From: a virus
Reading direction: 5' to 3' (one strand)
DNA length: 23,270 nucleotides
IMG/VR virus record: IMGVR_UViG_3300029259_000234
Coordinates: 1 to 23,270 of that record
Shown here: piece after piece, positions 383-20,300 of the stretch
How positions within the stretch are numbered: position 1 is the stretch's first letter
Layout: each line of letters starts with the position of its first letter
The notes under the pieces: model-generated
The model's database searches: none
What the model saw: only the letters and a program-made list of their open reading frames with translations
Told to the model about the DNA's origin: nothing
Position numbers and translations under genes: made by a program

Positions 383-2305
383 TTAATGAATGTTTGAATA
401 ATTTAAACCAAAATCTACATCTACATCTAAGTCTCTGTTTAACTCTAATGTATCATTTACTGTACCTACACACTCTTTAAGGTACTCAGTGACCCGTTTT
501 CTATACTTTGTTGGGCTTCTGAATACAATCTCATCGTGAAACTGCCCTACCAATTTAACGTCTTTCTTTAGTACTTCCTTTACCCACAAGTCAAAACAGT
601 ATGTTCCTGTACTCTGATTAAGTGTGCTGAATATATCTTTCTCAGCCCTTAATACATGCCATATCTTACTAACTGGGTTAAGTAACCACAGTATACCATT
701 AGTAGTCTTAGTTGTCTGGTCTTTAGCTATATCCTTTAAGCTCCAGTTCCTATCCCAATATGCTTGGTGAAGAGCCTTTCCCTCCGCTAATGAGCATTCT
801 GCTCCATCGGCTATGGTCTTAGCCCCTGCCCCATACGTGCTAGCGTAGTTTGTAGTCTTTCCCTTATGTCTTTGTTCTGCTAGCCGCTCCTTACTATCTT
901 TAGTAAAATCCCCGTTCTTATAAGCTGTTGACTGAGCTTCAGTTAAGAATCCCGCCTCTACAGCAATATCAAGGTGCGGGTCAAACCCATCCTTATTCAT
1001 TTCAGCTACGTAATCAGGGTCATGTGGCATCATATAATGTTGCTTTGTCCTGTCCTCTAAGCTACTCATGTCGCTACCACATAATTCGAGCCCGTTACTA
1101 CCTGTAAGCAACTCTCTAATAGCCTCTCCATACGGCATACGGGATGATGGTAGGTTAACACATACTGCATGTTTAAACCGTAACGTATTAGTTAAACCCT
1201 GTATTCCCGCTATAACATAGCCTTGCCCGTCTACTGCTTTAAGTAAACCAGTTACCAACCCCTTCCTGTGTCCTAATACACCTAAATTCTCAAGGTACTT
1301 TAATTCTGGATGTAGCCTAACTAGCTTTAGTACGCTAGGGCATAAGTCATCACCTTTCTTAACCTGCGGTATAGCCCTTTTCTTACTATAACCTCGTTCA
1401 TCCTCTCCATCTTCTACATATTTAAATGTCATTGGACTCCAGCCTAAATCAAATAACCAATCCTTAATCTGTTGTGGACTTGTAGCCTTTGGCTCATCAA
1501 AGTGGCTAGGTATCTGGTATACCTCTACACTTTTAAAGTCAAAACCGTATTCCTGACATATAGCTAACCACTTCTCCCCATGCTTTGATAATGTCTTATC
1601 CTCTTTAAAGCTCTTAGCAGGCCGTTTAACCTTCTTAAACTTCTGCACCTTAGGCATTACACCTTGGAGAGATTCTAACGCCTCTTGATGCCTCTCAGTA
1701 AGCTCAGAGAGTAGGTCGTAAGCCTTGTCTTCATCTAATTTCCACTTGTTCTGCTCTTGTAGCATTGCACAGTGCATTTTAAAGCTAAGATATTCTATCA
1801 AGTGCCAGTAACCATCGACACCATATAACTCAGTCAGGTACGCTTTCTGCTTCTCCCAAAGCATTGTGTTAATCTTAACATCTTCTTTACATCTGTGTAG
1901 CATTAGTTTGGCATGCTTTTCTTTCGCCTCTTCAAATCCGCCATCAGCATAGCAGTGAAAGTCTACTGGTATTCTCCACTCCCATTCTCTTACTACTGGT
2001 TTAGGTATTCCAAATGTTTCCCCCCAATCTGCTAACCCATGCTTGTTACGTTCTGGGAATAAGTACCAAGATAGGGCTAATGTGTCCACTAACTTAGCTT
2101 TAATCTTAATATCAAGGATACGCTCCAACACTGGGATATCGTATCTGATAATGTTGTGGCCTATTAGGTAGTCATCCTCAGTCACAAGACAAAAGAATGC
2201 CGCCTGTACCTTTGAAAGAGCAATGCCATCCCTCTTGGCAACCATACAATGAATCTTATCAGGGTTGAGGCCATTTGCTTCTATATCAAATACGTACTCA
2301 TTCAT
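383..2305 (-). CDS. Family A DNA polymerase with 3'-5' exonuclease domain (T7 gp5-like)
   Basis: This is the replicative DNA polymerase, 640 residues against 704 in T7 gp5. An N-terminal proofreading exonuclease carries FDIEANGL (residues 6-13, Exo I), IGHNIIRYD (Exo II) and a later C-K-E-D-V segment (Exo III). The polymerase domain carries motif A (GSDMSSLEDR, metal ligand D412), motif B (KTTNYASTYGAG, O helix) and motif C (HDE at 590-592). The O-helix aromatic is tyrosine, as in T7, which in that family goes with poor discrimination against dideoxynucleotides. I chose the ATG at 2305 because it lies just after the stop of the preceding gene and follows a purine-rich site (AAGGGCGGG). A longer frame from a GTG at 2368 would overlap that gene and adds a non-conserved leader. 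The next gene starts 17 bases downstream. Confidence 0.96.
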   Translation of the reverse strand: MNEYVFDIEANGLNPDKIHCMVAKRDGIALSKVQAAFFCLVTEDDYLIGHNIIRYDIPVLERILDIKIKAKLVDTLALSWYLFPERNKHGLADWGETFGIPKPVVREWEWRIPVDFHCYADGGFEEAKEKHAKLMLHRCKEDVKINTMLWEKQKAYLTELYGVDGYWHLIEYLSFKMHCAMLQEQNKWKLDEDKAYDLLSELTERHQEALESLQGVMPKVQKFKKVKRPAKSFKEDKTLSKHGEKWLAICQEYGFDFKSVEVYQIPSHFDEPKATSPQQIKDWLFDLGWSPMTFKYVEDGEDERGYSKKRAIPQVKKGDDLCPSVLKLVRLHPELKYLENLGVLGHRKGLVTGLLKAVDGQGYVIAGIQGLTNTLRFKHAVCVNLPSSRMPYGEAIRELLTGSNGLELCGSDMSSLEDRTKQHYMMPHDPDYVAEMNKDGFDPHLDIAVEAGFLTEAQSTAYKNGDFTKDSKERLAEQRHKGKTTNYASTYGAGAKTIADGAECSLAEGKALHQAYWDRNWSLKDIAKDQTTKTTNGILWLLNPVSKIWHVLRAEKDIFSTLNQSTGTYCFDLWVKEVLKKDVKLVGQFHDEIVFRSPTKYRKRVTEYLKECVGTVNDTLELNRDLDVDVDFGLNYSNIH

Positions 2306-2306
2306 A

Positions 2307-2597
2307 TTATAACCCGCCCTTATAGTAACCACTCTCCTGCACTTGGTAATGGGTATATTTATCCTCACCAGTCCAGTCCACCGTTTGTGACCAAGCCTTT
2401 CGACTAAATTCAGATACGCCTTGCTTCCAAAATAGCTTAATGGTTACACCATCAGGAACCGGCTGACCTTTACCATCGTAATGTGTTTTATCACCTTGAG
2501 TTAGGCGACAATGCTCACTAAGCATCCCTTCTATGTCCCCCATTACATGGTCATGCCGCTTGCCTGTTAGCTCTGCAATCTCTACGTACTCAATCAT
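2307..2597 (-). CDS. Small protein with Rha-like N-terminal motif
   Basis: The gene encodes 96 residues and lies between primase-helicase and DNA polymerase. It starts one base after the TGA of the helicase gene and has the strongest ribosome site in this region (AGGAGG, 7 bases upstream). Residues 5-24 (VEIAELTGKRHDHVMGDIEG) closely resemble the opening helices of the phage regulatory protein Rha family, whose typical start is a helix-turn-helix-like 'IA..TGK.H..V..DI'. The rest (KTHYDGKGQPVPDGVTIKLFWKQG, then a Trp-rich tail) does not match anything I recognise and is shorter than usual Rha proteins. A DNA-binding or regulatory role is inferred only from the N-terminal motif. Its fixed position inside the replication operon could also mean a replisome accessory. 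Confidence 0.85.
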   Translation of the reverse strand: MIEYVEIAELTGKRHDHVMGDIEGMLSEHCRLTQGDKTHYDGKGQPVPDGVTIKLFWKQGVSEFSRKAWSQTVDWTGEDKYTHYQVQESGYYKGGL

Positions 2598-2598
2598 A

Positions 2599-4272
2599 TC
2601 AAAACCTCCTAGGCTCTAAATAAGTAATAGTCTTCTCATCAAAGTATACATCACAACTGTAACTTTGTCCAAAGTCCCTGTCAAATAACATCCTAAACTC
2701 ACTCATATTCTTTCTATCATCGGGACAATCCTCTGTTCTATCCCTGCTAATACCGTGACCGTAGTGCGCCCATTTCTCCATAGCGCGACTACCTGTAAAC
2801 TCATGGCTATAAACCTTGCCACCAGCCTCGTGCGACTTGCTACCCTTTTGTTTAGGGTTAACGTGACTATAAAGAAATACAGATACAGGGTACTTCATAA
2901 CAAAATCACTCATGTCTGTCATAATCTCATTCAGCTTGTCATTAGCTTCGCTTGACGCATAACGACTAACTAAAGCTGTAAGAGGGTCAATGATAAAGAT
3001 GTTAATACCATCTAATAAGTGCATCTCCTCCATAGCAATCCGAATATCCTCCCAATCCCTGCTCGCGCTTCTGTCATAAAACCTAACCAACTCATTCATA
3101 GAAAGCAGGGTACTCTTCAAGTCCTCAGTATCATACTCAATGTCAGGTCTACTGTAATCTACCTTGTCATGCTTACCTGCTAACTTCTTAGCTGTCTTAG
3201 CTGGTGCGTTCTCTAAGTCAAACATCCCCACCTTAACCTTCTCTGTGTATACTAGATGCTCTACTAGCTGGTGCTGGTGGTCTGTCTTACCAATCTTCGG
3301 TGCAGCCCCCACAATATGAATCGTATTCGGTCTGATACCAAAGCAACCTTTGGTTACTGTAGGCCAAGGAAAGGTTAACCCCATCTTTGGTTGTTCTAAA
3401 GCTTTATCAATAAAATCTGTTATATCTAATACTTCACCTTGTCTTTCTACGACACTATCCCATACTGCTTTTTGGTATAACTCTTTCTGTCTACCTTCTA
3501 ACAGCATATCATTAGCGTCTTTCAAAGGTAATTTACATACTTTAAAGTTAGGAAATGATTTTAATATCTCTTTAGTTGATTTAATACCTGCTGTATCATT
3601 ATCTAGTACTAATATTACCTCTTTATACTTTTCAACAAACTCTCTGTTGTTAATAATATCTTTAACACCCCCCGTAGCCCCCCTCACAAGGCTAACTACA
3701 GAGGGCAGGTATGACTTAAACTTAGCTGGCGTATTGTCGGTTATAACTTGATACAGAGCCATAGCATCACAGCGCCCCTCAGTAATAAATAACCTCCTGC
3801 TGCCATGCTTACTAGCTAACTCTTTACCCCACAAGTCTACAGCACCTTTCCTATCCCCTACAGCACTGAATGACTTATCTGCTACGTTTCTTACTTCGTA
3901 CCCTGTAACCTTACCATCTTTTGTGTCTGGGTAGTAATGCTTAGTAACTGTCTTACCGTCACTCTCACTATACCCCAACCGTACATTGTATAAGTCTACC
4001 ACTTCTTTACGTAAACCTCTATCAGGTAACGCATCTACAGGTAAACTATCATAATCTGACGCTTTGTATGGCTTTACTTTTATCATCCCACCTTCATTTA
4101 CATACTTACTCTTATCCATACCACCTACCTTGTTTGCTGGGAAAAACGTGTTACAAGCGAAGCAGAAGCTATCATCTTCTTTGTCGTTATAACTGAATAC
4201 CTGATTTGCATCATGACTCCCGCAGTCTGGGCAAGGTATTTTGTAGACTGCTGTTCCGCTTGTGTGCTCCAT
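2599..4272 (-). CDS. Primase-helicase (T7 gp4-like)
   Basis: This bifunctional replication enzyme has 557 residues (T7 gp4: 566). An N-terminal zinc ribbon (C14, C17, C37, C40) reads the primer site. A Toprim primase core follows, with FITEGRCDAM near residue 165 and VLDNDTAG near 222. The C-terminal RecA-like hexameric helicase has a Walker A variant, GAAPKIGKT (about 321-329), and a Walker B, IFIIDPLTAL (about 427-436). The canonical glycine-rich P-loop is altered but keeps GKT. The start ATG at 4272 follows GGGGGAG. The 52-base gap upstream holds one of the two copies of the candidate phage promoter, so the replication operon probably has its own phage-RNA-polymerase-driven transcript starting here. 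The TGA stop lies one base before the ATG of the Rha-like gene. Confidence 0.95.
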   Translation of the reverse strand: MEHTSGTAVYKIPCPDCGSHDANQVFSYNDKEDDSFCFACNTFFPANKVGGMDKSKYVNEGGMIKVKPYKASDYDSLPVDALPDRGLRKEVVDLYNVRLGYSESDGKTVTKHYYPDTKDGKVTGYEVRNVADKSFSAVGDRKGAVDLWGKELASKHGSRRLFITEGRCDAMALYQVITDNTPAKFKSYLPSVVSLVRGATGGVKDIINNREFVEKYKEVILVLDNDTAGIKSTKEILKSFPNFKVCKLPLKDANDMLLEGRQKELYQKAVWDSVVERQGEVLDITDFIDKALEQPKMGLTFPWPTVTKGCFGIRPNTIHIVGAAPKIGKTDHQHQLVEHLVYTEKVKVGMFDLENAPAKTAKKLAGKHDKVDYSRPDIEYDTEDLKSTLLSMNELVRFYDRSASRDWEDIRIAMEEMHLLDGINIFIIDPLTALVSRYASSEANDKLNEIMTDMSDFVMKYPVSVFLYSHVNPKQKGSKSHEAGGKVYSHEFTGSRAMEKWAHYGHGISRDRTEDCPDDRKNMSEFRMLFDRDFGQSYSCDVYFDEKTITYLEPRRF

Positions 4273-4298: not shown

Positions 4299-4315
4299 CC
4301 TAGTATGTCCGTTCT
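4299..4315 (-). promoter_or_regulatory. Candidate phage RNA polymerase promoter, copy 1
   Basis: The minus-strand 17-mer AGAACGGACATACTAGG occurs exactly twice in the window, here and at 11339-11355. Here it sits in the 52-base gap between the RNA polymerase and primase-helicase genes, upstream of the replication operon. Its 3' part (GACATACTAGG) resembles the melting and start region of T7, SP6 and K11 promoters (ACTATAGG). It is followed by purine-rich sequence leading to the gp4-like ribosome site. The promoter role is inferred from repetition, position and this resemblance. Confidence 0.6.
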
Positions 4316-4324
4316 ATTGAAGTT

Positions 4325-6856
4325 TTAGCTAAAAATGTAAGCACTATCAAGCACTTCGGACAGATTTAAGGTGTTTATCATTATGTCTTCTGGTCTACCC
4401 TCAAAATTAGGGTTTACCTGCTCTACCCATCTCTTGATAGGCTCCTTTTCAAATAACTCTACATAAGCCTCCCTTACCCTTTTATTTAAGTTTACAACTT
4501 GGTTAACTGGGACTCCATAACTATCGTGGATAAGGTGGAAGTTAGTACAGCCATCAGCTTTTAGTTTCAACACAGTAGACGTTAATAATACAGCGTCTAA
4601 ACTATGTATAAAGTTAGGGGCTATCCCACTAACCATCTTCTGGGGATGTAAGTCACTGGTAGTTGTTCTTATAGATAACTTACCAATTGGTGTTACAACC
4701 CTTTCCAATTTAGTTTTATGTAACTTCTGTAATACGGGGAAGTCTGTTATAGGCGTGGTATAGAATACCCACTTACCCTGCTTGACAATATCCCCTGTAA
4801 CCTCCTTCAAGTACTCCTGTCCCGTCCTAGCACCCTTAACGACATCAGCTATAGCTCTGTCATTTAAGTCCGTTAGAATCTTAGCCACGAGCCATAAGTC
4901 ACCCACCCAAAACCTCTTGTTATTCTTTTCTAACTCTTGTAGCTCTATCTTTAGTTGCTCATACATACCGTACTTAGTCACTGAGTAAGGCTGTGTCATC
5001 GTGTTACGCTTTGTAAGCTTCCTAGTTATGTTACCCTTAAGGCTATTGGCTATCGCTACTGTAGACTCCTCATGGTCTTTACCATCCGAAGTTTTATAAG
5101 TAACAGACTTTATATAGTCGCCCTCATTTAATAGCCCGTTAACTCTATCCGCTACCTTTTGGTAGATGTCATTCCGTGTATCTCCTATAACATTAACAGC
5201 TTCAGCACCCTCTTTGTCCAAAAGTAGGCCAGAGTAGATTTGTATACCGGAGCAAGTAGCGTCCAAGGCCACTGGAATGTAAGATAGAAAGTTGTCCGGG
5301 TCTCTCAAGTAGTCAGCGTATTCAAAACACCACGCTAAGTATAAGAAAGGCTCATCTGCATCTTTCCATAACAGTCTATTAGACAAAGGGTCATCAGCTA
5401 TTAGTTTTATGTCATCCTCTTGAGCCTTGATTAAGTTAATACGGTCAAGGTATAGCTCCTTATCATACCCATAACAGTTAGCCCCATGCACCAAAAACCA
5501 ATCTAACTCCTCTTTAGTAGTAATCTTACACCCATTCTTAAACTCTAGTAAGGATTTAACTTCACCCCTACCTTGTGGCTGTAAGTGTTGCTGTATAGGG
5601 TAAACCCTACCTCTAAAATCATATTGGTAACTAAAGAAAAACTCATCCTCGTCAACATACTCTTTAGCGTTATATAGTACTAGGTTAAGCATTATAGCCC
5701 TACCCGAATTACTGATTGTAATATCGCGCTGGTCTTCTAAGTCTTTAAAGTACTTGCGCATTAATTCCTTCTCTTTAGGAAGCCCTTTATACTTCCCACT
5801 ATCATTAATATCACCATAGTTATGTATGTTAATAAAATCTTCGGGCTCTAACTGACCATTATAGGGTAGCTTACCTACCAGAAAAGGATTGTTAGGTGCA
5901 CTGTCAGAGTCCAATACGTTATTCTCGAAGATGTAATCCATAACATCATAGACCCTCTTATTAACCCGCCAAGCTGTGGCCTGTAGTGTATTCAACAGGT
6001 CAAATATCTGACTTGTATCTTTCTCTTTAAAGTATGCCGCTAGAAGCTTCTTAGAGCCGATACGACACTTTATAATAGGTAACTTGTACAACTCCCCCTG
6101 TTGGTAGCCACCAGTGCCGCTAAAAGACACCCAAGGCTTTGGCTTAATAAGTAATATAGGAAACTTTCTATAGTCTGTTAGCAACCTTTCTCTTGATTGC
6201 ATGACCATCCTGAAGCATTCTTCTGTGTATACGATAAACTGGGTTCTTTTACCTTTGCTCATAACTATCTTAGTCTCGATAATATTAACCCCGCTTTTTA
6301 ACACTAGGTCTAACAGCGTACCTCCTAAGTAAGTAGTGATGTCAGTCAAGTCTTGGTCATTCAGTTTCATCTGTCTGCGCACAATCTTTAACTTCTCCCT
6401 CTCCCTAAACTTCTCACTCCTATTTTTAAATCGTTTGTCTACGAAAGAACCAAAGTTATTATCATCCCTGTCTAACCTGCGCACCAGTATGCTGTCATAC
6501 AATGCCTTAATCAACTGTTTAATTAAAGAAATAGTAGGCACGTGATTATCTTTACTGATGCTTCTAACGATTGTAGCTAATAAGATAAACGCTAAGTCTT
6601 TAGTCGTATCACTAAACTCAAGCCCTACTATATCCCTAGCAGCTTTCATCTTACCCCTGATATCCTTAGCGAAATACTCCTCTATCTTATCAGACACGGC
6701 CTCAATACCATGCACTAGTAACAGCTTTCCCTCCGCTAGTTCGTCAGCTTGCCCTGCTTTTGTTCTCGAATTAACCTCCTTCATTAATCGTATATAACTA
6801 TAATCATTTGCAGCTTGTTCGAGTTTTATTTGACGCTCTAACTTAGATAATTCCAT
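4325..6856 (-). CDS. DNA-directed RNA polymerase, single-subunit T7 type
   Basis: This phage RNA polymerase has 843 residues (T7: 883) and is expected to transcribe the replication and late genes from phage-specific promoters. Motif A is VALDATCSGIQ, with the metal-binding aspartate at D532. Motif B is ITRKLTKRNTMTQPYSVTKYG, around residues 609-629, with the conserved R..TK..M....Y pattern. Motif C is HLIHDSYG, with the second metal aspartate at D778. The frame is intact across the palm and finger motifs, and nothing essential appears missing. The start ATG at 6856 follows AAGGAAG. The gene follows a 39-codon membrane-peptide gene and thyX, and precedes the candidate phage promoter and the primase-helicase gene. 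It is probably expressed from host-type promoters in the early region. Confidence 0.97.
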   Translation of the reverse strand: MELSKLERQIKLEQAANDYSYIRLMKEVNSRTKAGQADELAEGKLLLVHGIEAVSDKIEEYFAKDIRGKMKAARDIVGLEFSDTTKDLAFILLATIVRSISKDNHVPTISLIKQLIKALYDSILVRRLDRDDNNFGSFVDKRFKNRSEKFREREKLKIVRRQMKLNDQDLTDITTYLGGTLLDLVLKSGVNIIETKIVMSKGKRTQFIVYTEECFRMVMQSRERLLTDYRKFPILLIKPKPWVSFSGTGGYQQGELYKLPIIKCRIGSKKLLAAYFKEKDTSQIFDLLNTLQATAWRVNKRVYDVMDYIFENNVLDSDSAPNNPFLVGKLPYNGQLEPEDFINIHNYGDINDSGKYKGLPKEKELMRKYFKDLEDQRDITISNSGRAIMLNLVLYNAKEYVDEDEFFFSYQYDFRGRVYPIQQHLQPQGRGEVKSLLEFKNGCKITTKEELDWFLVHGANCYGYDKELYLDRINLIKAQEDDIKLIADDPLSNRLLWKDADEPFLYLAWCFEYADYLRDPDNFLSYIPVALDATCSGIQIYSGLLLDKEGAEAVNVIGDTRNDIYQKVADRVNGLLNEGDYIKSVTYKTSDGKDHEESTVAIANSLKGNITRKLTKRNTMTQPYSVTKYGMYEQLKIELQELEKNNKRFWVGDLWLVAKILTDLNDRAIADVVKGARTGQEYLKEVTGDIVKQGKWVFYTTPITDFPVLQKLHKTKLERVVTPIGKLSIRTTTSDLHPQKMVSGIAPNFIHSLDAVLLTSTVLKLKADGCTNFHLIHDSYGVPVNQVVNLNKRVREAYVELFEKEPIKRWVEQVNPNFEGRPEDIMINTLNLSEVLDSAYIFS

Positions 6857-6873
6857 CGCCCCACTTCCTTATA

Positions 6874-6993
6874 TTACCAGTGATGATAACAATTAGCAAT
6901 GATCGCTATCATAGTTGTTAATTCTACCGCTAGCACAACCAATCTAAAAGTAGCTCTGCCAGTCCAATTTATTACCGTGTTTAATGTTATCAT
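6874..6993 (-). CDS. Small membrane peptide, 39 residues
   Basis: A short open frame begins two bases after the thyX stop codon and ends 17 bases before the RNA polymerase start. It fills the only gap between those genes. The peptide (MITLNTVINWTGRATFRLVV and onward) has one hydrophobic segment at about residues 15-33 (FRLVVLAVELTTMIAIIANC) and ends in HHW. No clear ribosome site precedes it, so translation would depend on coupling to thyX. The family is unrecognised. The snug spacing favours a real gene, possibly an early membrane-acting peptide, but a frame this short could be chance. Confidence 0.5.
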   Translation of the reverse strand: MITLNTVINWTGRATFRLVVLAVELTTMIAIIANCYHHW

Positions 6994-6995
6994 TT

Positions 6996-7823
6996 TTATA
7001 ACGTCTGTCTATACTGAATAAAGTCTCTAAAGTTACCGGACCACCGACTACCATCTCGCCCCCTGTGTGTTTCACCTCTTTGCCAAGCGTAACCAGTAGA
7101 AATAGGTGTCGCTACATGCTCAAACGGTGATAAGTGTCCCGACTCATATAGCATATCATATAAAGATAGGTCTTTAGTCACGCTAGGAGCTGACTGGTCA
7201 TGATTAAGGTAGCTTACCCTAGCACACCTAGCCACAGAACATTTGATGGCCTCTAACAGGCTTAGGTTTGTTACCTCACATAGACGCATGTAAGGAAGAT
7301 GGAAACTTTCTTTACTTAAAACCTCTGGCGTACTATCCATCATACTCTGTTTCATAACAATAGCAAGCTGTTTAATCTCTGGTTGTGCATCTTTATGGTC
7401 ACGTAAAATAAAGAAGTTTTCCCATTCTGTTGATGTTACCACTGTATGCATTGTCTGAAAAGGTTCAAGTATACGATTAATAACTTGCTTATGCAACCCA
7501 ATATTATTTAGCCTGTATGCATTATCCGCAGCGTCATAAGCAGCATTCACCCAAAAGGTTTCAGCACCACTAATATCTATAACCTCCTGCTCTGCACTCA
7601 TTCCCGGTTGATTGGCTCCCCAGTGAATAGGTATTTCCGGGTTATTTCCTGCTTGAGCTATCATCTTGACTACTGGCACCGCTCTGCTACTCATAGCGTT
7701 GCGACTGAACACCCTATGTGTCATGAACTCACCGTGTATAAAGCGAGGATAGGCGAGTTGCAGTGTAGTGATACGATGCCCACTATCTGAAACACTATCT
7801 GCTATTACTTTTGATGATATCAT
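6996..7823 (-). CDS. thyX: Flavin-dependent thymidylate synthase ThyX
   Basis: ThyX makes dTMP from dUMP using FAD, NADPH and methylene-tetrahydrofolate, feeding phage DNA synthesis. Residues 35-47 read THRVFSRNAMSSR, matching the family signature RHRxxSxNxxSxR at every fixed position but the first (T for R), a variant I recall from phage ThyX proteins. The C-terminal segment (SGNFRDFIQYRQ) also fits the family. At 275 residues it is somewhat longer than many bacterial ThyX proteins. The ATG overlaps the TGA of the preceding 57-codon gene (ATGA), which suggests translational coupling. The gene sits just upstream of the RNA polymerase, so it is expressed early, before DNA replication starts. 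Confidence 0.93.
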   Translation of the reverse strand: MISSKVIADSVSDSGHRITTLQLAYPRFIHGEFMTHRVFSRNAMSSRAVPVVKMIAQAGNNPEIPIHWGANQPGMSAEQEVIDISGAETFWVNAAYDAADNAYRLNNIGLHKQVINRILEPFQTMHTVVTSTEWENFFILRDHKDAQPEIKQLAIVMKQSMMDSTPEVLSKESFHLPYMRLCEVTNLSLLEAIKCSVARCARVSYLNHDQSAPSVTKDLSLYDMLYESGHLSPFEHVATPISTGYAWQRGETHRGRDGSRWSGNFRDFIQYRQTL

Positions 7824-10553: not shown

Positions 10554-10607
10554 GGTGTGTTTCCCTTTGATTAGTTAATTAACTTAAGGTACATTCTACA
10601 GTGTTGA

Positions 10608-10637
10608 CTGAGCAACACTATACGTATTTATACTAGT
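10608..10637 (-). promoter_or_regulatory. Candidate host-type promoter for the early genes
   Basis: In minus sense TTTACC and TATAGT are separated by 18 bases, reading toward the first early gene. Four of six and five of six positions match the sigma-70 -35 and -10 consensus. It lies about 60 bases before the first early ATG, as expected for the host-transcribed early promoter of a T7-like phage. Weak evidence on its own. Confidence 0.35.
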
Positions 10638-10658
10638 TTAGGTAAATTAGTTTAATTA

Positions 10659-10857
10659 ACCTTTGTATATGGAGACGCGCACCCGTGAATAACACATATC
10701 AAAACATAATACAAGTGTTAAATGTAAGAATCGACGATCTATATTTTAATAGGCTAGTATAGTCCCAAGACATTTAAACAGCTTAGAACGGCACACAGGC
10801 CGAAATAGGCTACTGTATAGGTGCAAGAAAGACTTGACGGTATACCTTTGTATATGG
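10659..10857. repeat. 14-bp dispersed direct repeat pair
   Basis: ACCTTTGTATATGG occurs exactly at 10659-10672 and 10844-10857, 185 bp apart, within the gene-free region. The second copy partly overlaps the 8-bp palindrome GGTATACC. Repeats of this length are unlikely by chance in 800 bp and may mark binding sites or a past duplication. Confidence 0.75.
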
Positions 10858-10916
10858 TAGCAGCCAAGCCGGATAGTACTGTTCAATATATGCACAATAA
10901 TGTGCAAGAAAGACTT
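10821..10916. repeat. 15-bp dispersed direct repeat pair
   Basis: GTGCAAGAAAGACTT occurs exactly at 10821-10835 and 10902-10916, 81 bp apart. The second copy follows the inverted repeat TGCACA-ATAA-TGTGCA at 10891-10906 and shares bases with it. Both copies lie next to TATA-like sequences. Confidence 0.8.
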
Positions 10917-10948
10917 CCTATTTCCGTGGTATAAATACAACAAAGTGT

Positions 10949-10979
10949 ATCAATAATACTACAGTATATGTAGAAAGTC
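10949..10979 (-). promoter_or_regulatory. TATACTGTAG element within an inverted repeat
   Basis: CTACA-GTATA-TGTAG at 10959-10973 is a perfect 5-bp inverted repeat. In minus sense it contains TATACT, a near-consensus -10, with TTAGCA 18 bases upstream (4 of 6 to TTGACA) inside the tandem repeats. Related CTACTGTATA copies lie at 10810-10819 and 11083-11092. Early host-type promoter or operator is inferred. Confidence 0.3.
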
Positions 10980-10986
10980 ATGGTAA

Positions 10987-11022
10987 TGCTAAGGGTATTG
11001 CTAAGGGTATTGCTAAGGGTAG
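10987..11022. repeat. Tandem repeat, three 12-bp units
   Basis: The unit TGCTAAGGGTAT occurs at 10987-10998 and 10999-11010 exactly, and at 11011-11022 with the last base changed. Looser CTAAGGG copies appear around 11206-11213. T7 has arrays of a 7-bp CCTAAAG repeat beside its terminal repeats, so the place and core sequence (CTAARG) make this a possible counterpart. Confidence 0.85.
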
Positions 11023-11244
11023 TGGTAATACTAACGATAATAAGAATGATTCGCATTCAATATAGTTTAAAAGGTGAAGATTCTACTGTATAAATAGTGT
11101 ACAAAGAGACCCTATGGGGGGAAGTCGTGGGAATTTGTATATATGATACCCCCTGATATTTTTTAAATAATTTACTGAGGATATTTCTTATATAAGGTAA
11201 TACTAAGGGCTGGGAAACTGTTAAGGTAATGTCCTAAGTATTTC

Positions 11245-11288
11245 AGAGGGGGGGGAATTATATATTATATATTATCTCTTTCCCCTCT
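11245..11288. repeat. Hairpin with G8 run and AT-rich loop
   Basis: AGAGGGG at the left end (11245-11251, continuing to a run of eight G at 11248-11255) pairs with CCCCTCT at 11282-11288. The inner part is a TATATATTATATA-like stretch. No T-run follows on either strand, so it is not a standard terminator. It lies about 95 bp past the terminase stop, where a T7-like packaging or concatemer-junction signal could be. Confidence 0.6.
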
Positions 11289-11338
11289 AAGTCTCTTAGG
11301 CAATTTCTTATGTCTATATATCTCTCTGTTTCTCCAAC

Positions 11339-11355
11339 CCTAGTATGTCCGTTCT
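11339..11355 (-). promoter_or_regulatory. Candidate phage RNA polymerase promoter, copy 2
   Basis: This is the exact second copy of AGAACGGACATACTAGG. It lies 26 bases past the terminase stop and points away from the late genes, into the genome-end region. It is followed by a purine-rich stretch (GGTTGGAGAAACAGAGAG). T7 has a comparable promoter (phiOR) beyond gene 19 near its right end that helps replication and end processing. Confidence 0.6.
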
Positions 11356-11381: not shown

Positions 11382-13082
11382 TTATCTATTGTAAGATTTG
11401 AACCTATTTAAGCTAGGTTTTCCTCCCTTATTTCCTTGGTTCATTGCTTTAAATATACCTGCTCTTCTACGTAATTCATCCTTTACTTGTCTTCCTTTGA
11501 ATATAGCTAGGGCATCATTACTATCTTGTTTAAGTATACCGTAGTCATTCCAGTATTGTACTCCCATAGCTAATACATCTAGTCTATCATCATGGACTAA
11601 AGCTCCTCGTTCAGAGGTTATATGGGTTAGTTGATATAGGAGAGAGTAGTATAGGCTCTTAGGGTCTGTTAGACCACCTTCTATATCTCTCTTAATAGCT
11701 GTATAGTCTACTACTAGTCTGTGTTGATTCATTAAAGGTTCAAGGGTATCTATAATACGTTTCTCTTTCTGTGTATTATGTCTTACTTCTTCCATAGCTA
11801 CAGGATATATAGCATTAAGTACTGGCGATAGTAAACTACTAAACATACCGTCACCAAAGTTACTCTCTATTACTACTTTATTAACCTTATACTCTTTGGC
11901 TATTTCACTTAGTTTAACAAGGGTAGCTTCTTCGTACCCTCCTTGTAGTCCTCCGAAGGCTGGGATAAATACTTTACCTAATAGGTGATTAACTACACAC
12001 CAACCCATCTCATCTGTACCTCTACCACTAGGATCTATAGCTAATAAAGAACCCTCATAGTCTGCAAAGGCTTCTTGTGAAGCTGGTCTTTGTAATGTGT
12101 CTCCAGTAAACCCTATATTAGGTATATCATTTATACTCTCTTGACTATTAGAACTCCATAGTAATCTTGTAGGGGCTTGTAAGCTATCTAGGTCTGTTAC
12201 TATTAAGTCTTTACTCTTAAGGGGGTACTTCTCTGCGTCACTAAGTGTAGTATCTAACATGAACTGTAGTTTAAAACCACTACGTCCATAACTTAATTCT
12301 CTTTGGTATAAGTCTTCGTTATTAAATCGTTCATCTATAGACGTATCAACAAGGGAAGGGTCTCTAGCCATATCTTGTACGATATAATCAGCTAAACAAC
12401 CTTGGTAGCCCTCTACACTAGTTGGGTACTTAGCAGGATAGATTCTTGTTACGTAACCTTTGTCTCGTAATCTATTATATATAGACTCTGAAGTTTGAGG
12501 TGTACCTAGAACAAGTATCTGTGCGTTCTCTGTAGTCTGTAGTATAGCTTCATACTCAGCTACTTGATTAAGTAAGTCTTGTCTTCTTTTTTCGGTAGCA
12601 GAGTTATTCTGCCCCTCAACATCATCTGATATTAGAAGGGATGCACGATTACCCTGTAGCTGACTTGTAATACCTAAAGCTTTAACACTAGGCTGTACAG
12701 ATACTTCACAACCATCTACATCAAAGGAGACTACTGAACTACGCTGGTCTGGTCTAGGTTGTAGGTGTGCCAGTATAGGCATGGTGTCAATCAGTTTACG
12801 TATGAATATAGCAATGTTATCTGAGTGAGCCCCAGATTGAGATACGATTAATATCTTTTCGTTAGGCTCACGTAACAATCTCCACGCTACATACGCCCCT
12901 GTTATCCAAGTCTTACCTATACCACGTAACGCCTCTAGCTGAGAACGCTTATGGCCTTCTTGTAGGTAGTCAGCAATGTAGTATTGCATCCTAGTAGGAG
13001 CAGGTAATCTTAGGTGTGTCCATGTATGCTTAAGGAACACTTTGAAATCTTGTATACTCTTCTTTGTTTCGTCTTCTGTCAT
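11382..13082 (-). CDS. Large terminase subunit (T7 gp19-like)
   Basis: This is the DNA-packaging motor ATPase and nuclease, 566 residues (T7 gp19: 586). The Walker A-type motif is ALRGIGKTW at residues 51-59 (K57, T58), in the form R-x-x-G-K-T found in this terminase group. Walker B is ASLLISDDVEG near residue 150, with acidic DD. The C-terminal RNase H-like nuclease has LLAIDPSGRGTDE (about 342-354), VVIESNFGDG (about 403-412) and HDDRLDVLAMG (about 495-505), giving the expected acidic metal ligands. The ATG at 13082 follows AAAGGAA. It is the last late gene; after it comes the gene-free genome-end region. It would act with the small subunit to cut concatemers and fill proheads. Confidence 0.95.
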   Translation of the reverse strand: MTEDETKKSIQDFKVFLKHTWTHLRLPAPTRMQYYIADYLQEGHKRSQLEALRGIGKTWITGAYVAWRLLREPNEKILIVSQSGAHSDNIAIFIRKLIDTMPILAHLQPRPDQRSSVVSFDVDGCEVSVQPSVKALGITSQLQGNRASLLISDDVEGQNNSATEKRRQDLLNQVAEYEAILQTTENAQILVLGTPQTSESIYNRLRDKGYVTRIYPAKYPTSVEGYQGCLADYIVQDMARDPSLVDTSIDERFNNEDLYQRELSYGRSGFKLQFMLDTTLSDAEKYPLKSKDLIVTDLDSLQAPTRLLWSSNSQESINDIPNIGFTGDTLQRPASQEAFADYEGSLLAIDPSGRGTDEMGWCVVNHLLGKVFIPAFGGLQGGYEEATLVKLSEIAKEYKVNKVVIESNFGDGMFSSLLSPVLNAIYPVAMEEVRHNTQKEKRIIDTLEPLMNQHRLVVDYTAIKRDIEGGLTDPKSLYYSLLYQLTHITSERGALVHDDRLDVLAMGVQYWNDYGILKQDSNDALAIFKGRQVKDELRRRAGIFKAMNQGNKGGKPSLNRFKSYNR

Positions 13083-17338: not shown

Positions 17339-20300
17339 TTACTTATCTTGTGTAGGCTTTTCTAGTAAAGCCAAGGGATTTAATGCCCTTACCAATTTAT
17401 TAACAGCTTTACTATCTTGGTCGTTAGTTTTAGAGGATTTATTATACGCTGAAAACTTAACTACCTCGACCATAGCTTCGCTGTACTTACTACTATTAAT
17501 TAACCCCAGTGCTTTAGGGGAATTAGCTAAAACTTTGCGGGACAGTATAAGCCCAGTTTGCAACTCCTTACTAAAGGAATCGTAGCTAGGAACTAATGAT
17601 TTAATAGCTTTTATCGTCTTGGGTAGAGCCGTGTCCGCAGACTGATTATTAGTATCTACATCACCGCCGCTATTAAGTGTTACCTTAAAACCCCCAAGAA
17701 GGCCGCTGCCCTTGTGGCTTGCCTTCTGTTGTTTGTCAGAATACAATAAAGTCCCTTTGGAGCTATAGAAATCCACAGAGAATTTATTACCCTTAGAGTC
17801 AGTCTGTACAGTTTCAACGTAACCTACTTCACCCCAGCCTTTATGCACAGCAATGGAGTTATAGTCTGTAATAGATCTATTAACCACCCCAGCACTCTGT
17901 AGCCCTGCTGCTGTAGTAACATCTAAAATACTACCTGCGGATGCCTTACTGTCATTTAGGTCAAAGCTTGACCCAATAGAGCCAGTATTCCAAGCTATAG
18001 CTATTAAGGCGTTTACAACGTCAGTAGACTCATTCTCCAGCCCATCAACTCTCTGTAAAGAAGGAAGAACCCTCTTCTTGTAGTACCTAATAGCATGTTG
18101 CTTATCAGTCTCTCCTGCCTTCTTAATCATAGAAGCTCGCTTGCTTACCCCATTCTTATCCGTGTAATCGACAGCAACTACTCCATAAGCCGTAGTATTA
18201 GCTGTTTGAGACTCTTGACCAGTGTGCAGCACGCCTTCTGGAAAAACCTTACTGCCCGACTCCCTATCCTTAAGGTAGTCTGCAATGGCGCTAAAATCTT
18301 CATAATATGATAGAGTACCTGCCCCCACTGGGCTAACTAAGTAGTCACCAGCTTGTGATAGTATGTCTTCCATAACCTTACCCATAGCAGTGAAAGCGCC
18401 CCTTACAGCCGTTACTGAAGGATCGTTGCCAAGAGTTTCAGCATTCTTTTCTACCCCCTCTAGGTACTCTTGGATTAGTGCGTCTTTATCTAAGTTATAC
18501 GCGCGCGCTACTTCAGATATAACTGAAATATTATTTTCCTTAAGGTCTAGGTAAGCACTGTCAAAACCATCAGTCACTATATCTCCAGTAAACTTATTTA
18601 AATTAGCTGTTACACCAGTCACTATATCTATACCTGAGCTACCACCTAATCCATAGTCGTCAACCGCTAGGATAACAGCCTTTAAAAAAGGACTGAAAGC
18701 AGCTTGAATTACTTTACCTTCGGTATGAAGGAGCTTAGAGATATAACTGGCAGCCTTATCCATTGGGATGCTTATGCCGCTAATCTTATTATCAACAGAA
18801 GATTCGTCTGAAATAGTCTTAGCAATGATAGCCCACTGCGCATCTTTCATAGGTAGGGTTACAGAGTCCCCCTCATCATTTGTATAGTGCAAGTGACCAT
18901 TACGAGAGTTTGCACGTGGGTTAGTCCCGTCAAGTACCTGAGTTAGCTCTGCTGCTTTCTCGCCACTCAACATACCCTCTTGTAATAAGGTTGATTCTAC
19001 CTTGCTCATATTCTCGTGAGAGATACCAGCTCTCTTAATTAATGTCGCAGCAATCTGAGAGTACTCACCACGAGAGTCTTCTGGCTTAATATAGGTATAA
19101 GTTTCCTCCACAATATCAAAAGCCTCCTTACCATCCATTACAGTAGATAGCACAGATAAGGTGCGCGATGCCTCTCCAAAAGAGTCGGGAGATACAACCC
19201 GCTTCAAGTCTATAATTAACGGGCTGTTAGAGGGAAGCAGTTTTACCCCACCCACAGAATTAATAAGCCTAAGTGCTTCTGGTATATTTTTTACTTGCCC
19301 AGATAAAGCTAAGGTCTCAGTAACAGATATACGCAATAAGTCCTCTTTATTAGCTACACCGAAAGAAAGCGTTTTAACCCTATTCAAAGCGTCAGTAGCC
19401 TGCTGCACAGCCTCAGACTTATCTCCATCTTCTAACTTTGTATTAGAGGCGGCTGCTATTAAATTATTAGCTGCTGTGTTAAGGCTTACATCCCACTCAG
19501 GTTTGTAAATAGCGGGGTTGTTTTTAGAATGCCATTGTAATAAATCTACATTCACATTGTCAACACCAGGATTGTTAAACACACCTTTTATCGCATTTGT
19601 TATTTGTGTCTTAACTGCGTTCTTAGTCTCACCATCTTCCATAGCCTCAACGGTAATCTTAGACCCGGAATTAATCATAAGGGTTTCTGCACTACTGAGA
19701 GCTAAAGTCCCAGAGCTAGTGGCCTGTTTAATATACCTAGCTACATTTAGGTTAGAGCCCTCTTTAGAGAAAACACCGTTATCTAAACCAATCTGGTTAT
19801 TTCTATTAAAAGAAACTTGGTCGCCCACAGATATGGCTGTAGTAATATTAGAAGATAAGGCGGAGTCAACAGAGTTCTTAATAGTGTCAAGCTTATTCCG
19901 AGTATCATTTATAACTTTACTGTTTTTAGGGTCAAGAGACGATAGATTTTCTAGAGCAGTGTATGCATTAGTTAAAGACCCGTAATCGAAGTTATTAGCT
20001 AAAGCCTCTTTATCTAAACTACTTATAATAAAATTACTACTATTGGTTGCAAATAAAGTACCAAACTCAGATTTAGTCATACCCCTAGCGACAGCCACTT
20101 CTTGAAGATCAGAGTATACCTGCCCTTGTCCAGAAACAGACATATTTAAAATAGTTGGAAGTGCTGTTGATACACTCCCCTTGAAGCTATCTAAATCCGA
20201 CTTCTTAGCTATCGCAAGATAGTTGTTAACTGCTTTATTAGAGTTAGACTGATAAGCGGAGTTCATCCTAAGTTGCACTGCTGGATTCAAACTCTTAAAA

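Follow-up and report, generated by a model that had tools for sequence, protein, structure and literature searches.

A predicted T7-type phage RNA polymerase promoter of distinct specificity in virus record IMGVR_UViG_3300029259_000234

Gene layout around the two copies of the element

The stretch of DNA analysed here, referred to as the window, comprises positions 1 to 23,270 of the IMG/VR record, and every gene confidently recognised in it is coded on the minus strand. In the order of transcription, the late and tail genes are followed by the small and large terminase genes, by one copy of a 17-bp element, AGAACGGACATACTAGG, and by about 0.8 kb with no confident gene; then come small early genes, the thymidylate synthase gene, the gene of a T7-like single-subunit RNA polymerase (RNAP), the other copy of the element, and the primase-helicase and DNA polymerase genes (Table 1). 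From the Autographiviridae gene set the window has RNAP and the large terminase subunit (terL), while it holds no head genes, which were found only in an unlinked contig, L123, and in relatives.

A previous interpretation made from the letters alone, called the sequence-only reading below, had reported two exact 17-bp copies in the sense of transcription and had placed one of them between the RNAP and primase-helicase genes. Both copies are indeed exact and on the coding strand, and the first lies within the 52 bp that separate the RNAP stop codon (4325) from the primase-helicase start (4272), 9 bp past the stop. The short leader running from its predicted +1 to the primase-helicase ATG contains GGGGGAG. 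The second copy begins 26 bp past the terL stop codon (11382).

The region that follows the second copy probably holds a concatemer junction or the genome end, judging from its sequence. Tandem repeats near this likely end, in the window and in the relatives G001 and G004, have units of 12, 15 and 33 bp. Relatives that share 56-82% identity with the window in RNAP and terL show only about 23-31% in the primase-helicase and DNA polymerase (383-4272), and among named phages the closest primases reach 33-35% identity to that of the window; the replication module of the window seems, from these values, to have been exchanged.

Table 1. Features of the window, of contig L123 and of relatives
Feature	Sequence record	Position	Strand	Remarks
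Predicted phage RNAP promoter (post-RNAP), -15 to +2	Window	4299..4315	-	AGAACGGACATACTA followed by GG; exact copy; about 20 relatives alike; predicted +1 = 4300
Second predicted phage RNAP promoter (post-terL)	Window	11339..11355	-	Exact copy; predicted +1 = 11340; initial transcribed sequence GGGTTG
T7-like single-subunit RNAP, putative cognate enzyme	Window	4325..6856	-	phrog_414, E 2e-174
Primase-helicase, first gene 3' of the post-RNAP promoter	Window	2599..4272	-	phrog_239, E 6e-141
DNA polymerase, downstream in the same direction	Window	383..2368	-	phrog_17, E 2e-96 (frame from 2314); start codon uncertain
terL, upstream of the second promoter	Window	11382..13082	-	phrog_38, E 3e-99
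No confident gene over about 0.8 kb, from the post-terL promoter to the first early genes	Window	10554..11338	-	From the ORF list and the sequence
12-bp tandem repeat near the likely genome end	Window	10982-11028		
Motif before the portal gene	L123	10743-10759		AGAACGGACATACTAGAGGATAG
Post-RNAP, pre-portal and post-terL sites	G001	5985, 16709, 39241		Transcription-sense coordinates; post-RNAP motif TGAATGGACATTATAGA
Post-RNAP motif	G002			AGAACGGACATTATAGA
Post-RNAP, pre-portal and post-terL sites	G004	8708, 18376, 39658		Transcription-sense coordinates
Post-RNAP, pre-portal and post-terL sites	G005	4036, 13532, 36956		Transcription-sense coordinates; post-RNAP motif TGAAAGCCCCCTATAGA
Post-RNAP, pre-portal and post-terL sites	G008	32962, 1691, 26763		Transcription-sense coordinates
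Post-RNAP, pre-portal and post-terL sites	G010	36645, 25254, 537	-	
Post-RNAP motif	L051			AGAAACGACATTCTAGT

Chance level of the repeat

No other separated exact direct repeat in the window is as long as the element, and a search of the whole window with up to 3 mismatches found no third copy, the chance expectation for such a 17-bp pattern being 0.06. The post-hoc choice of any 17-bp direct repeat is less striking than this figure: since a separated direct repeat of at least 17 bp was present in 13 of 300 dinucleotide shuffles of the window, the repeat taken by itself is only mildly unusual and is weak evidence, and the bare repeat was dropped as a sufficient proof. When a matrix derived from relatives (-15 to +2) was run over the window, the two sites ranked first and second with a score of 14.0, which is not above the best scores of shuffled sequences (mean 12.5, maximum 16.8). 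A matrix scan extended over +3 to +6 failed to detect the post-terL copy, because the initial sequences vary between sites. Weaker candidates within the window, among them 18359-18369 in a coding gene and further ones with 2 mismatches, occurred at the chance rate and were rejected.

The same element at conserved places in relatives

RNAP relatives, with 53-74% identity to the enzyme of the window, were drawn from IMG/VR. Some 20 distinct relatives have a related motif immediately past the RNAP gene, in most of them 7-9 bp from the stop codon. Five near-complete relatives (G001, G004, G005, G008 and G010) carry the element at three places, namely past the RNAP gene, ahead of the portal gene (by 1.0-1.7 kb) and past terL (by 15-65 bp). 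The fragment G003 covers two of these sites, both of which are present, and G014 has similar sequences past terL and before the portal gene, so that the post-terL site was observed in G001, G003, G004, G005, G008, G010 and G014. By this three-site plan, the two copies in the window are the post-RNAP and post-terL members of the set. The sequence of the motif, its positions and its conservation are direct observations.

Two further features were noticed in these genomes. Direct repeats of the CTTAAAGA type, possibly a replication origin by their sequence and placement, follow the post-RNAP promoter in G001, G002, G004, G005 and G006; they are absent from the window, where the primase-helicase gene comes directly after the promoter. 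The contig L122 (IMGVR_UViG_3300015246_000029) carries two full-length, co-directional T7-like RNAP genes (170-2683 and 5009-7525), whose products are 35% and 73% identical to the RNAP of the window and have specificity loops quite unlike each other.

A third copy ahead of the head genes

The sequence-only reading had proposed a search for further copies before the late genes. An unbiased scan for WAGAACGGACATACTAG across all 2.9 million IMG/VR viral contigs returned matches to AGAACGGACATACTAG in only two contigs, L003 and L123, both from metagenome 3300029264. The former is 99.4% identical to the window across 7.3 kb and carries the post-RNAP copy. The latter (11,558 bp) encodes portal, scaffold, capsid and tail proteins and has the motif 1.1 kb upstream of the portal gene, so that the check set by the sequence-only reading came out in favour of a promoter. 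The G+C content of L123 is 0.406 and that of the window 0.399; the tetranucleotide correlation to the window is 0.84 for L123 and 0.83 for L003, compared with 0.38-0.70 for other relatives. On the exact motif, the shared metagenome, the composition and the synteny, we infer that L123 and the window belong to the same phage population. The two share no overlap and are not physically joined; no relatives turned up when the viral contigs were queried with the two large late proteins of the window (1291 and 1111 aa), and L123 could therefore not be linked through overlapping genes.

Directly upstream of the L123 motif lies a strong terminator-like structure, a hairpin of 15 pairs (-22.5 kcal/mol) with a T-rich stretch. 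A comparable GC stem with TTTT stands ahead of the site in G013.

Register and sequence of the promoter

The post-terL site of G008, TGAACGGACACTATAGGGGGA, contains the CACTATAGGG core of T7 promoters and bridges the clade to the T7 consensus. Aligned to this site and to the other relatives, the site of the window reads GGACACTATA followed by GGG, that is, AGAACGGACATACTA followed by GGG when taken from -15. The box at -4 to -1 is ACTA in place of TATA, its length being kept and nothing deleted. The sequence-only reading had described the element as lacking the central TA of T7-group promoters; as the alignment to the G008 site places a substitution in the -4 to -1 box, this description has to be corrected. 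The A+T-rich box, where melting would occur, is followed directly by a purine (G) at the predicted start, as ACTA before GG, GGG or GA. Between -12 and -5 the site agrees with the T7 consensus only at -7 and -6. The initial sequences are mostly GGG or GAGGGG at post-terL sites and GAT or GGT at post-RNAP sites, G003 excepted, as if the right-end (post-terL) site were the stronger one.

The RNA polymerase and its specificity loop

The enzyme encoded in the same genome is T7-like by its phrog_414 match and also by sequence match to T7 RNAP structures. Its predicted fold (mean pLDDT 76.4) has T7 RNAP as the best fold match, with a Z of 43.6, and the catalytic residues D537, K631, Y639 and D812 of T7 are kept. 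The specificity loop comprises about residues 710-736; R719 corresponds to T7 R746 and is thus kept, V721 corresponds to T7 N748, and T7 R756 and Q758 are replaced by S and R, respectively. These equivalences rest on sequence alignment, because loop residues 719-730 were modelled below pLDDT 50.

A comparison of specificity loops had likewise been suggested by the sequence-only reading, and its outcome fits a promoter. Among 20 taxa, the distance between loops correlates with the distance between the bases at -11 to -7 (Mantel r 0.50, p 0.0007), also when the remainder of the aligned C-terminal region is controlled for (partial Mantel r 0.33, p 0.008), although this is a correlation and relatedness is controlled only in part; the bases at -6 to -1 did not track the loop in the same 20 taxa (r 0.08). 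The three enzymes with R at T7 position 748 (G004-G006) have AGCC-type sites. Among the confidently aligned sites, G006 alone combines E at 746 with G at -7, and nearly all others combine R746 with C at -7. The code is not strict, because L054 has K at 746 yet C at -7, and the three sites of G008 vary at -11/-10.

Interpretation and alternatives

The motif recurs in one orientation in intergenic gaps, including the one before late genes (two copies in the window and one in L123), and taken with the three-site plan of the relatives and the loop comparison this supports the claim of the sequence-only reading that it is a predicted phage RNAP promoter. We consider it highly probable that the T7-type RNAP encoded by the phage uses the 17-bp repeat as its promoter, from about -15 to +2, and our verdict is a predicted T7-type phage promoter of distinct specificity.

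A repeat that arose by chance and has no function would agree with the 13 of 300 shuffles mentioned above, but it would not recur at matching places in some 20 distinct relatives, nor would an unbiased scan of 2.9 million contigs find it ahead of the head genes; the comparative data effectively refute a chance origin, which is scarcely credible. Binding sites of some other regulator, from phage or host, and host sigma-factor promoters are also intergenic and oriented and also recur ahead of operons. No sigma-70-type -35/-10 pair centred on the motif was found in the scanned terL region, however, and the sequence of the motif tracks the RNAP loop and resembles T7-type promoters in relatives, which makes such a site very improbable.

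The element might instead be a replication or packaging signal, such as an origin element or a processing site of the concatemer junction, and one copy does lie directly past terL, close to the likely genome end, while the CTTAAAGA-type repeats of relatives are found just past the post-RNAP copy; in T7, too, the primary origin is located at the promoters after gene 1. Against such a signal, the motif co-varies with the RNAP specificity loop and contains the CACTATAGGG core in G008, and its third copy stands ahead of the head genes, past a terminator-like hairpin and distant from ends and origin. We regard it as very unlikely when put in place of a promoter; since T7 promoters themselves fill such roles, it is partly an addition to the promoter reading and not an alternative.

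Under the preferred reading, a phage RNAP promoter, the binding of the enzyme to the motif, the start site and the roles of the sites are what we infer from the pattern described. The host polymerase would be responsible for the early genes and for the RNAP gene, and the phage enzyme would be an early product. The specificity loop of this enzyme would recognise CGGAC, the bases at -11 to -7, in the major groove; strand opening would occur in the A+T-rich ATACTA, and the next G would serve as the first transcribed base. The post-RNAP copy would drive the replication genes, and the pre-portal copy, outside the window, the head and tail genes; as the terminator-like hairpin lies directly upstream of the motif in L123, this would be the point at which the middle transcript stops and the late one begins. 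From the post-terL copy, transcription would run towards the genome end or the concatemer junction, in the manner of phiOR of T7, and may serve early-gene read-through, packaging or replication. This promoter may instead have a left-end role, depending on whether the physical end lies before or after it.

It is about an even chance that the whole phage-RNAP transcription programme of this uncultivated clade is run from only three promoters per genome, and that its members form a natural RNAP-promoter series in which the loop and the bases at -11 to -7 change together, non-TATA boxes included. With such a series, the code by which loop residues recognise promoter bases could be tested directly. 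The clade offers about 20 likely T7-like RNAP/promoter pairs, with enzymes whose identity to the RNAPs of the named phages searched is at most about one third (about 32% at the highest), and the element of the window may be useful as a fresh polymerase-promoter pair. What chiefly limits the use of new phage RNAPs in RNA synthesis is, according to PMC11475235, the identification of their cognate promoters; reading them from their conserved position past the RNAP and terL genes would be a simple bypass.

Comparison with known systems

Like the T7 promoter TAATACGACTCACTATAGGGAGA, the site of the window occupies about 17 bp ahead of a G start and has C at -7, A at -6, T at -2 and A at -1; it differs in carrying AGAACGGA at -15 to -8 and ACTA instead of TATA at -4 to -1. 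The placement is alike as well: T7 has phi1.1A/phi1.1B past the RNAP gene, the former 26 bp past gene 1, class III promoters before the head genes and phiOR at the right end, which is the positional match of the post-terL site. The number of promoters per genome is apparently three in the clade of the window, whereas it is 17 in T7.

The nearest named phages are the Lauvirus lau218 and the roseophage CRP-143, which have the Autographiviridae gene set, of which RNAP and terL are present in the window. The identity to the window is 57% for terL and 32% for RNAP in lau218 and 32% for RNAP in CRP-143. In lau218 the RNAP gene is inverted, unlike that of the window, and a scan of this genome found no clear copy of the motif.

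The phage LUZ100 resembles the window in having a T7-like RNAP, 29% identical to that of the window, and its own 17-bp motif that is only partly T7-like; its eight phage-specific sites, mapped by transcript sequencing, include one upstream of the RNAP gene and a local promoter for the capsid gene (PMC10134795). EM1, a metagenome-derived T7-like RNAP, uses the divergent promoter TCAGAAGTCACACTATAA, validated in vitro (PMC9596486). The site of the window differs from it at -12 to -8, and EM1 retains CACTATA; the EM1 promoter is biochemically proven, whereas that of the window is predicted from sequence. With KpnP, Ro45Iw and CD23823 as other cases (PMC12272871), divergent promoters of T7-like RNAPs are already well known, and the element of the window is a further, new example.
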